Source: a bacterium (GTDB lineage: Bacteria; Actinomycetota; Acidimicrobiia; Spongiisociales; Spongiisociaceae). From it: DNA of 64,000 bases. The translations under genes were made by a program, and so were the position numbers. The notes under the pieces were generated by a model. It ran no database searches and was not told the origin of the DNA. It saw only the letters and a program-made list of their open reading frames with translations. Of the stretch, positions 8,653-24,093 are shown piece after piece. Each line of letters starts with the position of its first letter. Within the stretch, counting starts at the first letter, position 1. Location: NCBI GenBank assembly GCA_028821235.1, contig JAPPGV010000089.1:1-64000 (forward strand), read 5' to 3'.

Positions 8653-10306
8653 GTCCCGGGTAGCCGAAATCAGGACCTCTGACCTGTCCGCTCCGTCGCC
8701 CGCGACGGTCGAGGTAGTGCGGAACGCGTTCATCTCCGGCGCGGAGCAGATGCGGCGGAACCTGTACCGGAGCGCCTACAGCCCGGTGATCTACGAGGCC
8801 AAGGACTGCTCGGTGGGCATCTTCGACGCCGAGGGACGCCTGCTGGGGCAGGCGCCGGGCCTTCCGTTCTTCCTGGGAAGCTTGGGCGGGACGCTCCGGG
8901 CGGTGATCGGCATCAAGGGGTACGAGGTCTTCCGGGAGGGAGATGTCTGGATCGTCAATGACTCGACCATCGCCGGGAGCCACCTCAACGACGTGACCGT
9001 CTTCGCTCCGATCTTCGTTGACGGGTTGTTGCGCGGGTTCTCGGCGGCGAAGGCCCACTGGAACGATATCGGCGCCAAGCGGGCCGGCTACGTGGGTGAC
9101 AGCACGGACATCTTCCAGGAAGGTCTGCGAATAGGCCCGACCTGCATCTTCCGGGAGGGTCGGGTCGATCAGCAGATCGTGGACCTGATCGCCCTCAATT
9201 CCAGGTTCCCGACCGCGATGGTGGGTGACCTGATGGCCGAGATAAGTGCCTGCCGTACCGGGGTGGAGCGGTTCCGGTCGATCGTGCGCCGTTTCGGGTG
9301 GGATCAGGTCGAGACCGCCGTCCGGCTGGTGTTCGAGCAGGCGGAGGCCGAGGACCGTGCCTCGGTGGCGGAGATTCCCGATGGTGTCTACGTGGCCGAC
9401 GGTTACCTCGACGACGACGGTGTCACGGAGGATCCGGTCTACGTGAAGGTCACGGTCACGGTGGAGGGTGACAGCATGACCGTCGACCTCTCCGGCTCCA
9501 ACCGCCAGTGTGTCGGCAGCATCAACAGCGGCATCGTGCAGACCCGGTCCGGCATCGAGCAGGGTTTCAAGTTTCTCGTCAATCCCCACGCTCCGGTGTC
9601 GGGAGGGAACTTCCGCAACCTCGAAGTGATCGCGCCGGAGGGCACCTGCTTCAACCCGGCCGAGACCGCCCCCTGCCTCCACTACGGACCCCACCTGATG
9701 CTGGCCATCGACCTCATGATCAAGGCCTTGAGCGCGGTGATTCCCGAGCGGACCGCGGCGGGACATGTGGGCGATTCGTGGAATGTCAGCATCGTGGGGG
9801 AGAACGAGTTCGGCCTCTTCCTGTCAGGTGAGTCGCTGACCGGGGGTTGGGGTGCGTTCGAGGGAGGGGACGGAGAGTCGGCCCTGACCCACTCGGCGGC
9901 CGGGGAATACCGCAACCAACCGATCGAGTCGTTGGAGAACCGGTATCCGTTCCTTATGCGTCGTCACGCCCTGCGGGACGGGTCGGGCGGTGACGGCAAA
10001 TGGCGCGGTGGGCTGGGGATCATCCGGGAGTACGAACTCCTGGCGCCGTGCACCGTCAACCTCTGGTTCGAGCGCTCCAAGCAACCGTCGTGGGGGCTCT
10101 TCGGTGGCAGGGACGGAGCGCCGCCCGAGGTGTGGGTGCATCGTCCCGGGCACGAGCCCGAAAAGATGCTCAAGGCCAACGGTCTCAAGGTCGAGGCCGG
10201 GACTCGGCTCCTGGTGAAGACCGGTGGGGGAGGGGGCTGGGGAGATCCGGCGGAGCGCAGCGCTACGGACCGTGGACGGGACCGCCGACTAGAGATGGTC
10301 ATCTGA
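8603..10306 (+). CDS. hyuB: Hydantoinase/oxoprolinase family protein, subunit B (copy 2, tandem duplicate)
   Basis: Second HyuB-type subunit, colinear with the preceding copy from PSPATVEVVRNAF to the C-terminal GGGGGWGDP and identical at roughly nine of ten residues by eye. No ATG, GTG or TTG lies in frame between the first copy's stop (8650-8652) and the start of homology. The only conventional upstream start is GTG 8603, inside the end of copy 1, giving a 50-bp overlap and a divergent leader of about 30 residues; a CTG near 8683 is another option. The gene is intact throughout, so it has remained under selection. It probably forms an alternative or heteromeric complex with HyuA. Confidence 0.88.
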   Translation: MPPRTELRTGAWSWSPESRVAEIRTSDLSAPSPATVEVVRNAFISGAEQMRRNLYRSAYSPVIYEAKDCSVGIFDAEGRLLGQAPGLPFFLGSLGGTLRAVIGIKGYEVFREGDVWIVNDSTIAGSHLNDVTVFAPIFVDGLLRGFSAAKAHWNDIGAKRAGYVGDSTDIFQEGLRIGPTCIFREGRVDQQIVDLIALNSRFPTAMVGDLMAEISACRTGVERFRSIVRRFGWDQVETAVRLVFEQAEAEDRASVAEIPDGVYVADGYLDDDGVTEDPVYVKVTVTVEGDSMTVDLSGSNRQCVGSINSGIVQTRSGIEQGFKFLVNPHAPVSGGNFRNLEVIAPEGTCFNPAETAPCLHYGPHLMLAIDLMIKALSAVIPERTAAGHVGDSWNVSIVGENEFGLFLSGESLTGGWGAFEGGDGESALTHSAAGEYRNQPIESLENRYPFLMRRHALRDGSGGDGKWRGGLGIIREYELLAPCTVNLWFERSKQPSWGLFGGRDGAPPEVWVHRPGHEPEKMLKANGLKVEAGTRLLVKTGGGGGWGDPAERSATDRGRDRRLEMVI

Positions 10307-10413
10307 CTTGCGCGCCAGTCCGAGGGTGGGTCCATGCTGGTCTGCTGGAACGACATGATTGTCGCCGAACTCAACGAGCGGACCTAGGCACTATGATAGC
10401 AATGAAATCACCG

Positions 10414-10419
10414 TATAAT
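10414..10419 (+). promoter_or_regulatory. Consensus -10 element of the FitAB-like operon
   Basis: A perfect TATAAT sits 30 bp upstream of the antitoxin start in a locally AT-richer patch (10391-10430). No good -35 box is seen at 16-18 bp. An AGGAG ribosome-binding site lies at 10437-10441, before GTG 10449. The antitoxin probably represses this site. Confidence 0.6.
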
Positions 10420-10448
10420 CCCGTGCAGTTGCTAGCAGGAGTAGGTCA

Positions 10449-10706
10449 GTGGCGAGTATCACCGTGCGGAACCTGGAGGAAGGACTGAAACGTCGGCTGC
10501 GCATCCGGGCGGCCGAGAACGGTAGATCCATGGAACAGGAGGCTCGGGACATTCTGAAGGCAGCTCTGTACGCGCAGCCTTCGACGGGAGAGGACCTCGT
10601 CCGAGCCATCCGGAGCCGGTTTGCGCCCCTGGGTGGTGCTGAATTGGAGTTGCCGCCGCGTGAACCCATGAGGGATCCACCCGACTTCAGCGATCGCGAT
10701 CGATGA
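10449..10706 (+). CDS. FitA-like ribbon-helix-helix antitoxin
   Basis: Small (85 aa) DNA-binding antitoxin. The N-terminal MASITVRNLEEGLKRRLRIR beta-strand/helix and the RSMEQEAR helix match the FitA/Arc ribbon-helix-helix class, which forms dimers that bind the operon's own promoter. The C-terminal half is charged and Pro-rich, as expected for the part that wraps the toxin. GTG 10449 has AGGAG at a good distance. Its TGA overlaps the toxin ATG at 10703, the usual toxin-antitoxin coupling. Confidence 0.88.
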   Translation: MASITVRNLEEGLKRRLRIRAAENGRSMEQEARDILKAALYAQPSTGEDLVRAIRSRFAPLGGAELELPPREPMRDPPDFSDRDR

Positions 10707-11122
10707 TCGTCCTGGATACAAACGTCGTTTCCGAGTTGATACACCCGCATCCTGCTGCCCCGGTGGTCGACTGGTTCTATCGACAGGCCGCCTTACGCCT
10801 CTATCTCTCAAGCATCACCGAAGCCGAGTTACGGTACGGTGTTGAGGTTCTGCCGGAGGGGTCTCGGCGGATGAAGCTCCGAGCTGCGGTTGAAGGGCTT
10901 TTGAGAGAGGACTTTGCGGGGCGTATTCTCCCCTTCGAGAGTGACGCCGCCCGCGCATACGCTTTGATAGCCGCCTCACGACGCGCCACGGGCCGTCCCA
11001 TCAGCCGGGCTGACTGCCAGATAGCTGCGATCGCACGGTCGGTAGGCGCCTCGGTGGCCACGCGGGATACCGGTGGTTTCGAGGGATGCGGTGTCGGCGT
11101 CGTCAATCCGTGGTCTGACTAG
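10703..11122 (+). CDS. FitB/VapC-like PIN-domain toxin
   Basis: PIN-domain ribonuclease toxin of 139 aa. The acidic metal-binding residues are all visible: D5 in MIVLDTNVVSE, E42 in ITEAELRYG, D104 in SRADCQIAA and D122 in TRDTGGF. The arrangement, ISRADCQIAAIA plus a C-terminal VVNPW, is typical of the FitB subgroup. It is translationally coupled to the preceding antitoxin. The module sits between the hydantoinase operon and an unrelated hydrolase gene, as an isolated stability or stress module would. Confidence 0.9.
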   Translation: MIVLDTNVVSELIHPHPAAPVVDWFYRQAALRLYLSSITEAELRYGVEVLPEGSRRMKLRAAVEGLLREDFAGRILPFESDAARAYALIAASRRATGRPISRADCQIAAIARSVGASVATRDTGGFEGCGVGVVNPWSD

Positions 11123-15663: not shown

Positions 15664-16545
15664 TTGGATTACCTTCGACCTCGCACGTGGCAGGATGCTG
15701 TAGCGCTGAAGACGGAGAACCCTGCCGCGGTTCCCATCAACGGCGGCACCGATCTCATGGTCGATCTCAACTTCGCCCGCTGCCGGCCGGCGGCTCTCCT
15801 CGATCTGTCCCATCTCGACGGACTCAAGCGGTGGGGCAAGAGCAACGGTACGGTCGAGCTCTGGGCCGGCGTCACCTACACCGATGTGTTGGAGCACCTG
15901 GGGACCGACCTTCCGGCGCTGGCGATCGCCTCGCGGACGGTGGGGTCGCCCCAGATCCGCAACCGGGGGACCATCGGGGGGAATCTCGCCACCGCTTCTC
16001 CCGCCGGGGATTCCCACCCGCCGTTCCTGGCTACGGGCGCGACGGTCCGGGTCGAGTCGATGCGAGGGGTCCGCGATGTTCCGGTCGGGAGTTTCTTCAC
16101 CGGTCCCAAGCGCACCGTGCTGGAGCCGGACGAGCTGATCAGGTCCGTCCTGGTTCCCACCGCTCGGGGGCCACAGCAGTTCTCCAAGGTGGGCACCCGC
16201 AACGCGATGGTGATCGCGGTGGTCTCCTTCGCGCTCGCCTTCGACGTGCCGGGCCGCCATGTGGGGACCGGGATCGGTTCCGCAGCCCCCACGCCGATCG
16301 AGGCCGCCGGCGCCGCCGCCTACCTGGAGCAGGAACTAGACCGCGGCGGGTATTGGCAGGATTATCGAGAGCTTCCCGCCGGGATCGTGGAGGGCTTCTC
16401 CGAGCGGGTAGCGGCCGCCGCCCGGCCGATCGACGACGTGCGCGGTCCGGCCCGATACCGTGTCCATGCTCTTCGCGTCATGGCCCGCCGGACCCTGCGC
16501 TGGGCCTGGTCGGCCCTGGCGACGGATGGATCCCGTGCTCATTGA
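15664..16545 (+). CDS. Xanthine/CO-dehydrogenase-family FAD-binding subunit (medium subunit)
   Basis: FAD-binding subunit of a molybdenum hydroxylase (293 aa), passing electrons from the 2Fe-2S subunit to an acceptor. The two FAD pyrophosphate motifs of the CoxM/XdhB family are seen: VPINGGTDLMVDL (about residues 23-35) and TIGGNLATASPAGD (about 104-117). The C-terminal CO-dehydrogenase flavoprotein domain follows. No ATG or GTG is available after the in-frame stop at 15631, so TTG 15664 is taken as the start. The ribosome-binding site is weak. It overlaps the next gene by 20 bp. Order FAD, 2Fe-2S, GTPase, molybdopterin subunit makes this a complete enzyme locus. Confidence 0.9.
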   Translation: MDYLRPRTWQDAVALKTENPAAVPINGGTDLMVDLNFARCRPAALLDLSHLDGLKRWGKSNGTVELWAGVTYTDVLEHLGTDLPALAIASRTVGSPQIRNRGTIGGNLATASPAGDSHPPFLATGATVRVESMRGVRDVPVGSFFTGPKRTVLEPDELIRSVLVPTARGPQQFSKVGTRNAMVIAVVSFALAFDVPGRHVGTGIGSAAPTPIEAAGAAAYLEQELDRGGYWQDYRELPAGIVEGFSERVAAAARPIDDVRGPARYRVHALRVMARRTLRWAWSALATDGSRAH

Positions 16546-17005
16546 GTTGACCGTGAACGGCAGGAGCCGTACGGCCGAGAATGTCTGGGCCGGTGAGAGC
16601 CTCCTGTACCTCCTCAGGGAGCGGCTGGGTCTGAGGGGCTCGAAGGACGCCTGTGAACAGGGAGAGTGCGGATCATGTTCCGTGTACCTGGACGGTGAAC
16701 TTGTCTGTGCGTGCCTGGTGTCGGCCGGCCAGGCCGATGGCGCCGAGGTGGTGACGGTGGAGGGCCTGTCGGACGGGGAGGCGCTCCATCCGATCCAGCA
16801 GGCATACGTGTCCGAGGGGGCGGTCCAGTGCGGCTTCTGCACGCCCGGGCTGATCGTCGCCACCCACTGCCTGCTCGATGCCAACTCCGATCCCTCGGAC
16901 GCCGAGATACGTGAGGCTCTGGCCGGGAACCTCTGCCGGTGCACCGGCTACGAGAAGATCGTCTCCGCGGTCCGGCTGGCTGCGACGGGAACGGCGCCCG
17001 GATGA
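16526..17005 (+). CDS. Xanthine/CO-dehydrogenase-family [2Fe-2S] subunit (small subunit)
   Basis: Iron-sulphur subunit of 159 aa. The N-terminal plant-ferredoxin-like cluster uses C43, C48 and C51 (CEQGECGSC) plus a Cys near 61. The C-terminal cluster uses C102/C105 (QCGFCTPG) and C137/C139 (CRCTGY). All eight-ligand motifs typical of CoxS/XdhC-like subunits are present. The frame is open upstream, but the ATG at 16526 begins the homology, giving a 20-bp overlap with the FAD subunit. Its TGA overlaps the GTPase ATG at 17002. Confidence 0.94.
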   Translation: MDPVLIELTVNGRSRTAENVWAGESLLYLLRERLGLRGSKDACEQGECGSCSVYLDGELVCACLVSAGQADGAEVVTVEGLSDGEALHPIQQAYVSEGAVQCGFCTPGLIVATHCLLDANSDPSDAEIREALAGNLCRCTGYEKIVSAVRLAATGTAPG

Positions 17006-17997
17006 GCACGGTGCCCATCCCATCCAGGACCGGCCCGAGCGTCACTGTCCTGACCGGCTTCCTGGGCGCCGGGAAGACCACCCTCGTGAACCACATTCTC
17101 TCGACGGACCACGGCCGCCGTATCGCGGTGATAGTGAACGAGATGGGTGAGATCGGGATCGACGGCGATCTCATCGTCTCCTCTGACGAGGAGGTGATCG
17201 AGATGGCCAACGGGTGTGTCTGCTGCACCCTGTCGGTTCGCAACGACCTCACGGCCACGATCCGGAAGCTGCTGGCCCGCCCGGAGCCGCCCGACTACGT
17301 GGTCATCGAGACCAGCGGAGTGGCCGATCCGGTGCCGGTCACCCAGGCGCTCTTCGTGGACGAACTGTCCGATCGCATCGCGGTCGACGGGATCGTGACC
17401 ATGGTCGACGCCAAGCACGTGGACGCCCACCTGGACGCGTTCGGTCCCGACCGTCGCGATAGTCGGGTGGTGGACCAGATCCTGTCCGCCGACCGGATCG
17501 TGATCAACAAGACGGATCTGGTCGGGCCGGACGCCTTGCGGAGGACAGAGGCCCGGATCGGTGAGTTCAACAGCACCGCGCCGGTCATCAGATCGAGCTA
17601 TTCCAGGGTGGATCCGGATGAGATTCTCGGGATCGAGGCCTTCGGCGGATCGGCGGCGTCGACAGACGGCGGGTTCTTTGAGGACACCTATGTGCCCTCC
17701 GGCGATCCGGGCATCGAGGCCATCAGCATCGAGGTCGACGGCGAGTTGGACGAGGCGATGCTGAGGGGCTGGCTCGAGAACCTCACCGAGGCGCGATCAG
17801 CCGACATCTACCGGATGAAAGGCATCCTCGCCGTGGCCGGGCGCCCCCGCCAGACCATCCTGCAGGGAGTCCATCGACTCTTCGAGATCTATCCCGGCGG
17901 GCGATGGTCGGGCAGCCGTGGCAGCCGACTGGTCTTCATCGGTCGTGACCTCGATCACCGCATGTTGCGGTCCGGTCTGGAAGGCTGCCGCGCCTGA
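17002..17997 (+). CDS. CobW/G3E family GTPase (putative metallochaperone)
   Basis: GTP-binding protein of the G3E family, 331 aa. It shows the P-loop GFLGAGKT (19-26), the metal-binding GCVCC with C72/C74/C75 in the CxCC pattern, the ETSGVADP switch region and the NKTD guanine-specificity motif. The C-terminal CobW domain is present in short form. G3E proteins insert or traffic metals such as Zn, Co or Ni. Here it lies between the 2Fe-2S and molybdopterin subunit genes with 4-bp and 1-bp overlaps, so a role in maturing this hydroxylase or its metal supply is a reasonable inference. Confidence 0.9.
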   Translation: MSTVPIPSRTGPSVTVLTGFLGAGKTTLVNHILSTDHGRRIAVIVNEMGEIGIDGDLIVSSDEEVIEMANGCVCCTLSVRNDLTATIRKLLARPEPPDYVVIETSGVADPVPVTQALFVDELSDRIAVDGIVTMVDAKHVDAHLDAFGPDRRDSRVVDQILSADRIVINKTDLVGPDALRRTEARIGEFNSTAPVIRSSYSRVDPDEILGIEAFGGSAASTDGGFFEDTYVPSGDPGIEAISIEVDGELDEAMLRGWLENLTEARSADIYRMKGILAVAGRPRQTILQGVHRLFEIYPGGRWSGSRGSRLVFIGRDLDHRMLRSGLEGCRA

Positions 17998-20321
17998 TGG
18001 GAGTTCGCTCGCAGTTGGACACGAAGGTTCGCGACCGCGCGGCCCACGCGCGCGGCGTCGGCGCCTCACCGCCGCGTCCTGATGCCCCGCTCAAGGTGCT
18101 GGGCCGCTTCGCCTACGCCTCGGACCTCCACATAGACGGCATGCTGTGGGGCGCCACGGTCAGGAGTCCGCACCCGAGGGCACGCATCCTGGGTGTCGAC
18201 ATCGGCCAGGCCCTGGCGATCCGGGGGGTTGCCACCGTGCTGACCGCCGAGGACGTGCCCGGACACCGTTTCTACGGCATCAAGGTGGCTGACCAGCCCG
18301 TCCTGGCCGCCCACGAAGTCCGGTACGTGGGGGAGCCGGTGGCGATCGTGGCCGCCGACCATCCCGAGACGGCCCGTAGGGCGGTCGAGGCCGTCACCGT
18401 CGAGTACGAGGTGCAGGCGCCCCTGACCGATCCTGAATCCTCCCTGGCAGGGGACGGGGATCCGATCGACCCGGGCGGGAACGTGGCGCGGCACGTTCGC
18501 ATCCGCCACGGGGACGTTGCAGCGGCTCGCTCGCGGGCAGAGATCGTCATCGAAGCCGAGTACCGCTCCGGGGTCCAGGATCCGGCCTTCCTGGGCCCGG
18601 AAGCCGGTCTGGCGGTGCCGGACGGGAGCGGCGGCATCGACCTGTACGTGGCGGCGCAGTGGATCCACGACGACCGGCGCCAGGTGGCAGCCGCTCTCGG
18701 GCTGGATCCGGGCATGGTGCGCCTGACGCTGAGCGGGGTAGGCGGTGCGTTCGGGGGCCGGGAGGATCTGTCGGTCCACATCCATGCCTGCATGCTGGCG
18801 CTGCGGATGGGCCGTCCCGTCAAGATGTCCTACAACCGGGAGGAGTCCTTCGTCGGCCACGTCCATCGGCACCCCTCGCGGATCCGGGTGGAGTTGGGCG
18901 CCCGCCGGGACGGAACCCTGGTCTACTCCAAGGTGAGGCTCCTGCTGGACGGAGGCGCCTACACGTCCACCTCGCAGATCGTCATCGCCAACGCCTCCTA
19001 CTTCGCCGCCGGCGCCTACGCCGTCGACCACGTCGAGATCGACGGCTACGCCGTCTACACCAACAACCCTCCCCGCGGCGCCATGCGCGGCTTCGGGGCA
19101 GTCCAGGCCTGCTACGCCATCGAATCGGCCATGGACCGCCTCGCGGGGGAACTGGACATGGACGCGGTGGAACTGAGGATCCGTAATGCCATCCAGGCGG
19201 GAGACCTCCTACCCACCGGACAGGTGATTGACGGCCCCGCCCCAACCCGCGAACTCCTCGATCATCTGCGCAGTCTTCCCCTGCCCCCCAAGCGTCCTGC
19301 GGCAGGCGAGGACCTGAGGCGGCTGCCCGGCGGCGTGGGCAATACCACCCACGGGGAGGCGGTGGTCCGGGGGGTCGGCTACGCCCTCGGGATGAAGGCG
19401 ATCGGCTTCTCGGGAGGCGTGGACGACATCTCCACGGCGCGAGTGTCGGTCTCGGTTGCAGGCGGCCGGCCCGTGGCGGAGGTCTACAGCGCCGCCTCGG
19501 AATGCGGGCAGGGCATCGTGGCGGTCCAGGCCCAGATAGTGCGCACCGAACTGGGCATCGACTCGGTGACGGTCCGGCCCGCCGACACTGACATCGGGGA
19601 CGCCGGCTCGTCGGCGGCCTCCCGCCAGACCTGGATGACCGGGGGAGCGGTCGAGGGCGCCTGCCACGGCGTGCGCGAGCGGATCCTCGAGCGGGCCGCC
19701 CGGCGCCTCGGTTGCTCTCCGCGAGACCTGGCTCTCACTCCCCACGGGGTCACGGTTCCCGGCAAGGGGGAGGCTCTCGTTGGTCTTGCCGACATCCTCG
19801 GCCATGACACGATCGAGCACACCTTCGTGTACCACCACCGGCCTACCGAGCCCATCGACGACGTCCGGGGCCAGGGCAACGCCCACATCGCCTTCGCCTA
19901 CGCCGCCCACCGGGCGGTGGTCGACGTGGACACCGAGCTGGGTCTGGTCCGGGTGGTCGAGCTGGCCACCGCCCAGGATGTGGGGAGAGCCATGAACCCC
20001 CAAGCCGTCGAGGGCCAGATCGAAGGCGGTTCCGCCCAGGGTCTCGGCCTCGCCCTGCTGGAGGAGGTCCAGGTCGAGGACGGCTTCGTGAAGAACGCTT
20101 CCTTCACCGACTACCTGGTCCCGACCATCCTCGACATGCCTCCCATGAACGTCCGGCTCTTCGAGTTCCCCCATCCCGACTCCCCATACGGGCTCAACGG
20201 GGTAGGGGAGCCGCCCACGCTGTCCTCCACCCCGGCCATCGTCAACGCCCTGCGCAACGCCACCGGCCTCGACCTGCCAAGGGTCCCGGTCCGACCAACC
20301 GATCTGATCTCGTCGTTCTAG
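17997..20321 (+). CDS. Xanthine dehydrogenase-family molybdopterin-binding large subunit
   Basis: Catalytic subunit of the molybdenum hydroxylase, 774 aa. It begins with the a/b-hammerhead domain (LKVLGRFAYASDLHIDGMLWG). The molybdopterin domain follows with GGAFGGRED, the substrate-pocket PPRGAMRGFGAVQ and QASECGQG-like SAASECGQGIVAVQ. Near the C-terminus the GVGEPP motif holds the catalytic glutamate. The RGAMRGFG pocket resembles xanthine/purine-type hydroxylases rather than form I CO dehydrogenase, which has an AYRCSFR loop. The substrate is therefore more likely a purine or other N-heterocycle, but this is inference. ATG 17997 overlaps the GTPase stop by one base. Confidence 0.92.
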   Translation: MGVRSQLDTKVRDRAAHARGVGASPPRPDAPLKVLGRFAYASDLHIDGMLWGATVRSPHPRARILGVDIGQALAIRGVATVLTAEDVPGHRFYGIKVADQPVLAAHEVRYVGEPVAIVAADHPETARRAVEAVTVEYEVQAPLTDPESSLAGDGDPIDPGGNVARHVRIRHGDVAAARSRAEIVIEAEYRSGVQDPAFLGPEAGLAVPDGSGGIDLYVAAQWIHDDRRQVAAALGLDPGMVRLTLSGVGGAFGGREDLSVHIHACMLALRMGRPVKMSYNREESFVGHVHRHPSRIRVELGARRDGTLVYSKVRLLLDGGAYTSTSQIVIANASYFAAGAYAVDHVEIDGYAVYTNNPPRGAMRGFGAVQACYAIESAMDRLAGELDMDAVELRIRNAIQAGDLLPTGQVIDGPAPTRELLDHLRSLPLPPKRPAAGEDLRRLPGGVGNTTHGEAVVRGVGYALGMKAIGFSGGVDDISTARVSVSVAGGRPVAEVYSAASECGQGIVAVQAQIVRTELGIDSVTVRPADTDIGDAGSSAASRQTWMTGGAVEGACHGVRERILERAARRLGCSPRDLALTPHGVTVPGKGEALVGLADILGHDTIEHTFVYHHRPTEPIDDVRGQGNAHIAFAYAAHRAVVDVDTELGLVRVVELATAQDVGRAMNPQAVEGQIEGGSAQGLGLALLEEVQVEDGFVKNASFTDYLVPTILDMPPMNVRLFEFPHPDSPYGLNGVGEPPTLSSTPAIVNALRNATGLDLPRVPVRPTDLISSF

Positions 20322-20404: not shown

Positions 20405-20842
20405 TTAGCCGACGTCTAGGAGCGGGTTGTGCCATCGCAGTCCTGGGAAGCGGGCGAAGTCACCGTCGTTGGAGTGGACCTGGGCTTGGTGTTCGATGGC
20501 CAGCGCGGCGATGTGGGCGTCGGTGACGAGGTTCCCGCCCACGCCGACGGCGGCCAGCAAGTTGCGGAAGATGGCGAGGTGCTGAGTGCCCGGATTCAAC
20601 GGAGTGACGCTGGATGAGCGGAACCACTTGGCCACGAGGTCGGCCGCGTGCTCTGGTGCCGCCGGGTCGCGCAGCACGGCGGGATGGGTAAGCAGCCGTA
20701 CGAACCCTGTCGCCACGAGCCAAGGAACCCCTACTCGCTCGGTTCCGTTCACCAAGTCCTCCCACCACCGGCGTGCCGGCTGGTGCAGCGGCGCGCCGGC
20801 GGCGTGGGCGTACACGAGCAAGTTCAGGTCTGGGACGATCAC
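20405..20842 (-). CDS. vapC: VapC-family PIN-domain toxin (TIGR00028-like)
   Basis: PIN-domain toxin of 145 aa. Acidic residues D5 (MIVPDLNLLVYAH), D108 (LVTDAHIAALA) and the D126/D128 pair (SNDGDFARFPGLRW) match the actinobacterial TIGR00028 VapC subgroup, in which the FARFPGLRW ending is characteristic. Predicted activity is Mg-dependent RNA cleavage. Start ATG 20842 overlaps the antitoxin stop, the normal order of antitoxin first. Confidence 0.9.
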   Translation of the reverse strand: MIVPDLNLLVYAHAAGAPLHQPARRWWEDLVNGTERVGVPWLVATGFVRLLTHPAVLRDPAAPEHAADLVAKWFRSSSVTPLNPGTQHLAIFRNLLAAVGVGGNLVTDAHIAALAIEHQAQVHSNDGDFARFPGLRWHNPLLDVG

Positions 20843-21096
20843 TGCGCCTGCGGGCCGGGGAATCCGCCGACCTCGAGCGAGTCGTTGAGTTGGTTGAGTC
20901 GCATCGGATCGACGCCGGGCCTGAACCCGCTCGGGTAGGGATCGACTAGGTAGCGCGGCGCGGTCTCGACGAGCGCAGGGGACAGGCCCCGTCTCAAGGT
21001 GTCGTTGACCACCTTCTTGAACGGCTGGTCTGTGCGCTGGGCCTGTTCCTTGAGGGCATCAGCCAGATCGTCATCAAGAGTCAGAGTCGTACGCAT
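20839..21096 (-). CDS. vapB: VapB-type ribbon-helix-helix antitoxin
   Basis: Antitoxin of 85 aa with the N-terminal RHH signature MRTTLTLDDDLADALKEQA and a QPFKKVVNDTLRRGL helix. The C-terminal half (DPYPSGFRPGVDPMRLNQLND) is the expected toxin-neutralising tail. It lies directly upstream of vapC with a 4-bp overlap, and its upstream region carries inverted repeats that could be its operator. Confidence 0.88.
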   Translation of the reverse strand: MRTTLTLDDDLADALKEQAQRTDQPFKKVVNDTLRRGLSPALVETAPRYLVDPYPSGFRPGVDPMRLNQLNDSLEVGGFPGPQAQ

Positions 21097-21224: not shown

Positions 21225-22379
21225 CTAGCGGCGGCGTAGTTGTTTGATCCGCCGGGCGGCTGGGGTCCATAGCCACTCGGGTTCGGTGAACCGGCGATGG
21301 TCCTCGCCGGGCAACCCCAAGGGGTCGTAGTAGCTCTTGTCGGTGTTCTTGCGCAGATAGCTTGTTCGCCGCAGCACCTTCAGGGAGGCATAGATCGTCC
21401 CCTTGTGGGTCCAGCCCTGGCGCTGGTAGTTCCAGTTATCGGGCGCCAGGTGCTGCGCTTCGCTGAAGTACCGCCAAGCGCGTTCGCTGTCGCCCACCGA
21501 CTCGAAGTGCAGCGCCAGCTTGAACGTCGCCTCCGCCAACCGTAGGTCGTCATCGACGGGCTTGAGCCGCTCGGCTAGTTCCTCGCTGGACCAGACATGC
21601 TCGCTGTCGGCTCCCTTGTCGATCCAGTCGCGAATGGCCCGGGCGAATGCGTCGTCGCCCACGCGGACCTTGCCGAGGCCGAACCTGATGGTCGTGTGAG
21701 CGGGGTACGTCCCCTCGTTGCTACGGACGATGCGCCCGTCCTCGTCTATCCACGCGGCTGACGGCACGCTCACCCAGCCGAACAGCGAGCTGATCTGATG
21801 GGTCGGGTCGATGACGCACCGGTAGGTCGGCGAGGCCCGGTCGAACCATTTGTCCACCACGGCGGGTCCGCCCGAGTCCTGCGCCACGCTGATCAACTCG
21901 AACCGGTCCGGACCGATCGATTCGTACAGATCCTGCCAGTCCGGCAGGCTGAAGCGGCACCCTCACCATGAGGACCAGGTGAACAGCACCACCTTGCGCC
22001 CCCGCAAGTCCGAGAGACTCAACGTGTTGCCGTTCCGCTCGGTCACCTCGAAGTCCGGGGCGATGGCGCTCTCAAGCCCGGCGCGACGGACCTCGGGCAC
22101 CGAGCCGAGGCTCCAGACATCGCCGTCACGGGCGTACTTCTGGCCGATCCTGTCCGCGAATCCCGAGTAGCAGAACCAGACCCAGTCGTCGGCGTCCGCG
22201 ATCCACTCCTCACGCTTGTCCGCCGGCAGCGGTACGCACAAATCGCCCAGGCAGGCGCCCTCCGGCTTCATCTGCCAGCCGGTGGCGCGCGGGAGTTCGT
22301 CCATCCGCACCCACAGCGCTCCCGCGGGGTCGGTCCGCCGGGCGACCTGGTTCGTCTTGCCGTTTACGAGGATGATCAT
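21225..22379 (-). CDS. Redoxin (thioredoxin/TlpA-like) selenoprotein with in-frame TGA = Sec139
   Basis: Reads as one 384-residue protein if TGA at 21963-21965 (minus) is selenocysteine. Start ATG 22379 has GGAG 5 bp upstream. Residues ~1-100 form an N-terminal domain with CxxxxC (GACLGDLC). A redoxin core follows, DFEVTERNGNTLSLSDLRG then VVLFTWSSW-U-GCRFSLPDWQ, placing U139 exactly at the redox-active position with resolving C141 (UxC). Beyond the TGA the same frame continues with LISVAQDSGG and a C-terminal TPR-like helical region to the TAG at 21225. There are no other stops or frameshifts. A SECIS-like hairpin lies 20 nt after the TGA. The alternative, a nonsense-mutated pseudogene, fits poorly with the intact downstream frame and the position of the TGA. 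Predicted role: thiol-disulphide or peroxide reduction. Confidence 0.82.
21932..21948 (-). ncRNA. Bacterial SECIS-like hairpin for Sec139
   Basis: On the minus strand CCTGCC-GGACT-GGCAGG forms a perfect 6-bp stem with a 5-nt loop starting GG. An adjoining CAG/CTG pairing extends it past a 2-nt bulge. Twenty nucleotides separate the UGA from the loop, within the 16-37 nt expected for bacterial SECIS elements, and a G lies in the first two loop positions as required for SelB recognition. It overlaps coding sequence, as bacterial SECIS elements do. Confidence 0.75.
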
Positions 22380-22674
22380 GCTTGCTCCGCGAGAGCCGGC
22401 TCGCCCGGCCAGTTGAGCGCTTCGCCGTGCGTCAGGCTCCATTGGTACCTGACCGTAGTGCTCGCCGGCTACGAAGGCTATTGGCCATGGGCGGCCATCA
22501 CGGACCGCTACGGGTTGGAGATGCGGCGTTCGTTTGCCTACGACCGGGTGTGCCAGGGACGGACCGCGCCCGGTCGCGAGGGTGATCGGAAGCCCGGTGA
22601 TTCGGGCGGGGCAGTCCTATTGGTACCGTGCGGACCCGCTCGGGAGTGCCGAGGGGGTGATTCTCGTAGAGGGG
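22380..22674. other. Divergent intergenic region between selenoprotein and lipoprotein genes
   Basis: About 295 bp that should contain promoters in both directions. A short rightward frame (from about 22413) encodes a Trp/Tyr-rich stretch I do not recognise (around LAGYEGYWPWAAITDRYG). It could be a gene remnant or the out-of-frame start of the lipoprotein leader. No repeat or RNA gene is seen. Confidence 0.4.
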
Positions 22675-24093
22675 ATGAATCGTGCGGTCAGCAGGGAAGA
22701 GACGCGGTCGGTGAGGGTGGGTCGAGTCGGTCTGGGCTTGTTGGGCGCGGCGTTGGCGTCCGTCTTCATTGCGGCGTGCGGGCCGGCGGATGATCTGTCG
22801 ACGTCGGGGGCTTCAGTCGTGTCGACCCTGGCCTCCGAGACATCGGCCGGAACGACCGCGGCTTCGACCGCGCCGGTCCCGGTTGTCGAGACGGGTCTCG
22901 ACGGCGTGTCCGCGGACGCGCGTTCCCTCGTTGACATCTGGCTGTCCGCGGTGTCGGAGTCGGGTGGAGCGTGGCCGGGTTACGACCTTGGCGATATCCC
23001 GACGGTGTTGGTCTCGGTCGACGTCGGGGGGAGCATAGGGGCTGTGGTGGCCTTCAACCACCCGAGTCCGAGCCCCTTGGGGAGCGCGATCCTGGATGTC
23101 GAGGTGGGCGGCCACCGGGTGGCGGTGGTCGGGGAGCCCGCCGACCCGGAGAGGCTGGCCTCCATGGCGCCGTTCGACTTCTTCGCGGACATCGGCGGTA
23201 CGGAGACCTTCGTGCTGGTAGGACAGCGGGGAGAGCCGGGCCGGGAGCCTGACACTCCGGGGTTCGTGGCGATGGTCGCCCACGAGGCGTTCCATCGTTA
23301 CCAGTTCGATCACTGGGTTCCCGGCGCAACTGCGCAAGACGTCGTGGGATACGACTTCGGGGCGGAGAACCTCGAGTTGGTGCTGCTCGAGAACCGGGTC
23401 CTGGTCGCTGCCTACCAGGCGCGCACGGTGGGGGAAACCGAGCGGCTGGCCCGCCAGTTCGCGGCGGTGCGCGCCGCCCGGCACGAGCGGGATCCCAGGG
23501 TTGCGCTCGATGAGGAGCAGGAACGTATGGAGGGGTCGGCCCGATGGATCGAGCACCGGATGGGCGACGCGATCGGAAACACCTACCTCTCTACCAATCA
23601 CACCAGCGAACTCGGATACCTGGATGAGAGCATCGACGACCCCGGGGCGGTGCTGGGCAACGTCAAGTCGTTCTTCGGGTTCGGGCGCTTCTACAGCAGC
23701 GGCGCCACCGTGCTCGCTCTACTCGAACGCCTCGGTGTGGCCGGCGCCGACGTCGCTGACCGGCTCGGGGACGGTGATACGCCTGCCCAGTTGCTAGCAC
23801 AGCGCATCGCGCCCCTAGGCGACCGCGACGAGCTGGTCGCGGCGGCCTGGGCGGAGCACGATCCGGACGGCCGGCTCGGCGCGGCCGCGGCGGCCCTCGC
23901 CGAGCTCGCAGCCGGCGAGGGGGAAACCGACTTCGGCGCCGGCGACGCTCCTGAAGAGACGCTCGGACCCGGTTTCGAGGTCAGCGAAGACCAGATTGCC
24001 TGCCTCCTGGACCATGGGCTCGACCTGAGCGCCGACAGCGTCACCATCCCCGACGACATCGCGAGTGCCTGTCTCGGCGACTCCGGATCCTGA
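22675..24093 (+). CDS. Lipoprotein with HExxH zinc-metallopeptidase-like motif
   Basis: Predicted secreted lipoprotein of 472 aa. The N-terminus has a basic stretch, a hydrophobic core (VGLGLLGAALASVFIAAC) and a lipobox Cys, followed by a Ser/Thr/Ala-rich linker. HEAFH at about residues 203-207 (VAHEAFHRYQFDHW) is a gluzincin-type HExxH, and the later MEGSARWIEHRMG may give the third ligand glutamate. No named family is recognised. Peptidase activity at the cell surface is the best guess. ATG 22675 is chosen over upstream starts because AGAGGGG precedes it and the signal peptide begins shortly after. Confidence 0.78.
   Translation: MNRAVSREETRSVRVGRVGLGLLGAALASVFIAACGPADDLSTSGASVVSTLASETSAGTTAASTAPVPVVETGLDGVSADARSLVDIWLSAVSESGGAWPGYDLGDIPTVLVSVDVGGSIGAVVAFNHPSPSPLGSAILDVEVGGHRVAVVGEPADPERLASMAPFDFFADIGGTETFVLVGQRGEPGREPDTPGFVAMVAHEAFHRYQFDHWVPGATAQDVVGYDFGAENLELVLLENRVLVAAYQARTVGETERLARQFAAVRAARHERDPRVALDEEQERMEGSARWIEHRMGDAIGNTYLSTNHTSELGYLDESIDDPGAVLGNVKSFFGFGRFYSSGATVLALLERLGVAGADVADRLGDGDTPAQLLAQRIAPLGDRDELVAAAWAEHDPDGRLGAAAAALAELAAGEGETDFGAGDAPEETLGPGFEVSEDQIACLLDHGLDLSADSVTIPDDIASACLGDSGS

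Follow-up and report, generated by a model that had tools for sequence, protein, structure and literature searches.

A divergent member of the UGC-containing redoxin family in Acidimicrobiia with a probable selenocysteine at an in-frame TGA

The window analyzed here, a stretch of 64,000 nucleotides from an acidimicrobial genome (positions 1 to 64,000 of contig JAPPGV010000089.1, assembly GCA_028821235.1), contains on its minus strand a frame (22442..21225) that is open when TGA is translated as selenocysteine (Sec, U) and that includes exactly one TGA, at 21965-21963. Translation bears out the original prediction of a redoxin frame that crosses a TGA at the position of the active-site cysteine: after this single TGA no stop is found until the TAG at 21227-21225, and the residues flanking U139 are VLFTWSSW-U-GCRFSLPDWQD. 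That prediction gave no strand, which is the minus strand; its extent of 384 codons stands, supported by the orthologues and by a GGAG upstream. In nearly all close orthologues an ATG, GTG, or TTG lies exactly 138 codons 5' of the TGA, matching the start at 22379, and the sequence 5' of that start codon is divergent among them. The features of the gene are listed below.

22379..21225, minus strand: coding sequence of the Sec redoxin, ATG at 22379 to TAG at 21227-21225, 384 codons, with U139
22385..22388, minus strand: GGAG, a probable Shine-Dalgarno sequence 5 nt upstream of the ATG at 22379
22068..22379, minus strand: N-terminal domain, residues 1-104, with the invariant C43-x4-C48
22236..22253, minus strand: codons of C43-L-G-D-L-C48 (CxxxxC), both cysteines invariant in 34/34
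21702..22064, minus strand: thioredoxin-fold domain, residues 106-226 (AhpC-TSA 63 bits, Redoxin 53 bits)
21963..21965, minus strand: TGA, codon 139, predicted Sec in W-U-G-C-R; TGA in 41/41 unique close orthologue sequences
21957..21959, minus strand: Cys141 codon; Cys141 pairs with U139 in U-x-C and is invariant in alignment A1
21932..21948, minus strand: bSECIS-like hairpin CCUGCC-GGACU-GGCAGG, 6-bp stem, loop starting 20 nt after the UGA
21345..21650, minus strand: C-terminal helical region, residues 244-345, with TPR models matching in at most 13/34 family members

An AlphaFold2 model of the protein (pLDDT 86) places a thioredoxin fold between an N-terminal α/β region and helices at the C-terminus. 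The central domain is a thioredoxin fold of the TlpA/ResA type; fold comparison of the model returns ResA, TlpA, and DsbE types as its solved neighbors (E about 1e-9), and the best PDB neighbors in sequence and fold are 3kcm, 4nmu, and 1su9. For the N-terminal domain, modeled alone with a pLDDT of 90, fold comparison finds no solved structure at E ≤ 0.001, and neither Pfam nor a PDB sequence-profile search gives a significant match; the best-ranking fold, that of a Cu/Zn superoxide dismutase from Paenibacillus, was rejected with an E value of 0.71. The C-terminal helices are matched by TPR_2 in 13/34 family members. The N-terminal CxxxxC and the TPR-like C-terminal region had been described as unusual additions, a description that does not hold: C43, C48, U139, and C141 are invariant in 34/34 aligned members (Sec counted as Cys), the family model NF041054 aligns over 305 residues, and both regions are shared across the family as a whole.

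The NCBIfam model NF041054 (WAxxUGC_long) matches the window protein with an E value of 4e-79 and 266.6 bits, below its 300-bit cut-off (254 bits from DNA), aligning residues 24-328 to model positions 8-322 of 354. The window gene is the only strong match in its genome, and other members of the family in the class score 470-558 bits. The proteins covered by this model, named 'ResA-like WAxxUGC motif-containing protein', have the same U-G-C site, N-terminal CxxxxC, and C-terminal region as the window protein, which differs in having WSSW-U rather than WAxx-U, such that the literal WAxxUGC motif is absent, and in belonging to a clade that is ~24 residues longer at the N-terminus and also has a longer C-terminal tail. 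The window protein contains WSSWUGC, and many orthologues of the same clade contain WASWUGC. Because of the score below the cut-off, the WSSW-U sequence, and the extra length of the clade at both termini, NF041054 assigns no automatic name to the window protein.

The family itself is on record from a 2008 Global Ocean Sampling survey, in which 'Prx-like (UGC-containing)' is a predicted selenoprotein family of 46 sequences with pfam00578 and the motif UGC (PMC2398784); later catalogues list a 'UGC-containing Prx-like protein' (PMC9312934) and a 'UGC-containing TlpA disulfide reductase family protein' (PMC13188914). Like the 2008 family, the window protein is a pfam00578 redoxin with UGC, and we equate the two by motif, Pfam domain, and name. 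The window protein is thus best seen as a divergent representative of selenoproteins whose sequences were already recognized in 2008, and, given the 2008 survey and NF041054, it is much less novel than the original prediction implied. The Prx-like thiol:disulfide oxidoreductases and SelL-related selenoproteins likewise have a redoxin fold in which the active-site helix starts with Sec; their spacing is UxxC or UxxU, in contrast to UxC in the window protein, and the match to the SelL-related model has an E value of 0.08. What the window adds is a clade of Sec redoxins from Acidimicrobiia MAGs, about 40 different sequences in all, that falls just below the cut-off of the NCBI model. Because the model just misses this clade, public annotation probably still splits these genes or calls them pseudogenes.

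Relatives, mostly with one in-frame TGA, are present in 91 of the 296 genomes from the class that a translated search covered, which argues that the read-through frame is not due to chance. Scanning a single genome for each species yielded 53 further loci, the majority, with 66-88% identity, from Acidimicrobiia MAGs and some, with 34-42% identity, from Gammaproteobacteria/Pseudomonadales bins; the close relatives are mostly MAGs. The TGA is at the identical residue in every TGA locus read and, in a residue-by-residue reading, is kept in all close orthologues and all gammaproteobacterial loci. Relatives down to ~30% identity keep the TGA, the exceptions read all have Cys, and the stop-free distant homologues (n = 12) have TGC or TGT aligned to it. 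The check proposed with the original prediction, a search for Cys or Sec at residue 139, therefore returned TGA or TGC/TGT in all homologues read: the frame is coding, and residue 139 is a Sec/Cys position. The locus in genome G268 appeared to contain a second TGA, which we rejected as its terminal stop read through by the search; as in the other TGA loci, there is one internal TGA, and the C-terminal length is the usual 245. Orthologues in congeners are full length with 83-91% identity. The dN/dS ratio against the closest congener is 0.10 5' of the TGA and 0.12 3' of it, and against more distant relatives it ranges from 0.12 to 0.28 on both sides; the part 3' of the TGA is constrained as strongly as the part 5' of it.

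The hairpin downstream of the TGA falls within the published limits for bacterial SECIS elements (a stem of at least 4 bp and a loop of 3-9 nt, with G in the first two loop positions, 16-37 nt after the UGA; PMC13188914), with its 6-bp stem and the loop GGACU 20 nt after the UGA. We rejected these loose criteria alone as evidence, as codon-shuffled controls pass them in 44/60 cases, and energy-based criteria alone are uninformative; the case for the hairpin therefore rests on fixed register and covariation and not on energy. All six stem pairs are standard in 55/64 distinct UGA forms versus 3/12 Cys forms, and in registers shifted by -6 to +6 none of the 64 UGA forms has all six pairs. Covariation is seen in the Leu/Gln pair, where TTG..CAA replaces CTG..CAG on two distinct branches, one being L079 and the other L031, L091, and L092. 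A G-ending Leu/Val codon is present in the stem of 64/64 UGA forms versus 6/12 Cys forms (Fisher 4e-6, relatedness ignored), against a background of 58% G-ending Leu codons elsewhere in the same genes. In the gammaproteobacterial forms with GTG the corresponding stem pair is lost.

The search for sel genes in the genome of the window, a MAG-like assembly (G000) of 3.6 Mb in 162 contigs with 96.9% completeness, was positive for selC and selD and negative for selA and selB. The tRNA-Sec (selC) has the anticodon UCA (77 bits). The selD gene (375 bits; L096/L145, G000:C28:48646-49566) has an in-frame TGA within its own frame, in GGGUASKLG, and for this reason is probably itself a selenoprotein gene. 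Neither selA nor selB was found above cut-off in the 162 contigs. However, selA is present in 8/8 congeners of the class sample, and in the closest congener (G176) selA (L127:7545-9005) overlaps selB (8993-10777), the pair spanning L127:7545-10777. When contigs of the window's genome are aligned to this region, base 1 of contig C69 corresponds to L127:6088 and the last base of contig C155, 10032, lies at L127:11392. The two contig ends flank the selAB equivalent, and the syntenic selAB site therefore falls exactly in an assembly gap, in which selAB is presumably present. This example illustrates that absence of selA and selB from a 97%-complete assembly can be an effect of gaps, a trap in calling or dismissing selenoproteins. 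Across the sampled class, selA accompanies the TGA-form redoxin in 75/78 cases versus 1/12 for the Cys form (Fisher 1e-10, relatedness ignored); the three TGA-form genomes that lack selA are the gapped genome of the window and two genomes that are 70% and 79% complete. In genome G162, which has a Cys-form redoxin, selA (L099, G162:C418) scores 518 bits versus about 390 or less for all others, this genome has no tRNA-Sec match at the threshold used, and its selA contig is possibly a contaminant.

Sec139 in a redoxin, as originally predicted, is thus strongly supported by the Sec/Cys alignment, selC, selD, the gap that accounts for selAB, and the SECIS-like hairpin. Based on these comparisons we regard the window gene as very probably a genuine selenoprotein gene in which the UGA at codon 139 is read as Sec, and we infer that this decoding takes place in vivo.

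As to function, we favor, with some reservation, a thiol-disulfide oxidoreductase that uses a Sec-x-Cys pair. The thiol-disulfide oxidoreductases ResA, TlpA, and StoA use a CxxC active site and are typically membrane-anchored or exported. The window protein has the thioredoxin fold in common with them; in contrast to these three it lacks CxxC and has U-G-C, one residue shorter, shows no evident signal sequence, and carries the N-terminal CxxxxC and C-terminal helical regions. The lack of an evident signal sequence points to a likely cytosolic, soluble location. Sec often raises peroxidase activity, and an alternative reading is that the selenoprotein acts as a peroxiredoxin-like peroxidase and not as a disulfide oxidoreductase, consistent with AhpC-TSA and Redoxin as its best Pfam matches and with the name Prx-like given to the family in the 2008 survey (PMC2398784). 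Against a peroxidase, the PxxxTxxC(U) motif of peroxiredoxins is absent (the window protein has LFTWSSWU), and in the alignment of 34 members neither P at -7 nor T at -3 is conserved, the latter position being S, A, or others; moreover, the top-ranked solved folds are of the ResA, TlpA, and DsbE types, and U-x-C occupies the position of CxxC. We consider the peroxidase a possible but rather doubtful assignment. The gene neighborhood gives no operon partner that would hint at a substrate, because flanking genes are common to at most 5/36 close-orthologue loci.

For the preferred thiol-disulfide oxidoreductase we propose that the UGA at codon 139 would be decoded by SelB and tRNA-Sec(UCA) with the aid of the hairpin 20 nt downstream. 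The selenolate of U139 would attack an oxidized substrate, in the direction of electron flow that we infer, and C141 would resolve the reaction as a Sec-x-Cys selenenylsulfide. Electrons would be supplied by another dithiol, plausibly the invariant C43-x4-C48 of the same protein; we are cautious in speculating about these residues and offer the relay from C43/C48 to the Sec-x-Cys pair as a tentative assignment. A bolder and less likely version is that the N-terminal domain has a fold not yet in the PDB, with CxxxxC serving the Sec-x-Cys center as an internal redox partner or as a metal site, which would make the protein a self-contained two-dithiol relay. The joint conservation of CxxxxC and U-x-C makes electron relay a concrete and testable hypothesis.

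Other readings of the locus would do without Sec. A pseudogene or sequencing error, in which a former Cys codon became TGA in the window's genome or its assembly, might be suspected because selA and selB are missing and the assembly, in 162 contigs, is MAG-like; yet the same TGA occurs in tens of genomes, Gammaproteobacteria bins included, the frame has neither a frameshift nor another stop, and selC and selD are present. The TGA is conserved and the sequence 3' of it is under purifying selection (dN/dS about 0.1 on both sides); we take the two together as a refutation, which leaves this explanation very improbable. Termination at the TGA with downstream re-initiation, yielding two proteins from ORFs 22442..21963 and 21896..21225, is the split that a mechanical ORF caller makes, but it would cut the thioredoxin fold at its active site and part that site from C141, whereas the Cys-form homologues are single uninterrupted proteins; we give it equally little credence. 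Reassignment of TGA to an ordinary amino acid, under which the frame would likewise be open, is hardly credible in view of the tRNA-Sec with anticodon UCA and selD, selA in all sampled congeners and selB in G176, and the alignment of TGA with Cys only.

The surroundings of the Sec redoxin gene include several further genes. A VapC-like PIN-domain toxin gene (20405..20842, minus strand) and a small antitoxin-like gene upstream of it (20839..21096, minus strand) sit as a pair between a xanthine-dehydrogenase-type gene and the Sec redoxin gene. Loci L043 and L044, elsewhere collinear with the window, do not align between 20332 and 21225, a segment across which L146 is continuous. DNA identity to L044 is ~100% in window positions 18242-20242 and from about 26700 on. 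Most of the DNA that separates or flanks these two tracts, the Sec redoxin gene included, has 81-93% identity; this patchy identity reflects either recombination tracts or a chimeric bin. A CobW/HypB-like GTPase gene (16939..17997, plus strand) with GFLGAGKTT and CVCC lies amid a molybdenum-hydroxylase-type set (15664..20321). Divergent to the Sec redoxin gene is a gene for a putative lipoprotein (22534..24093, plus strand) with a HEAFH (HExxH) motif, possibly a metallopeptidase.
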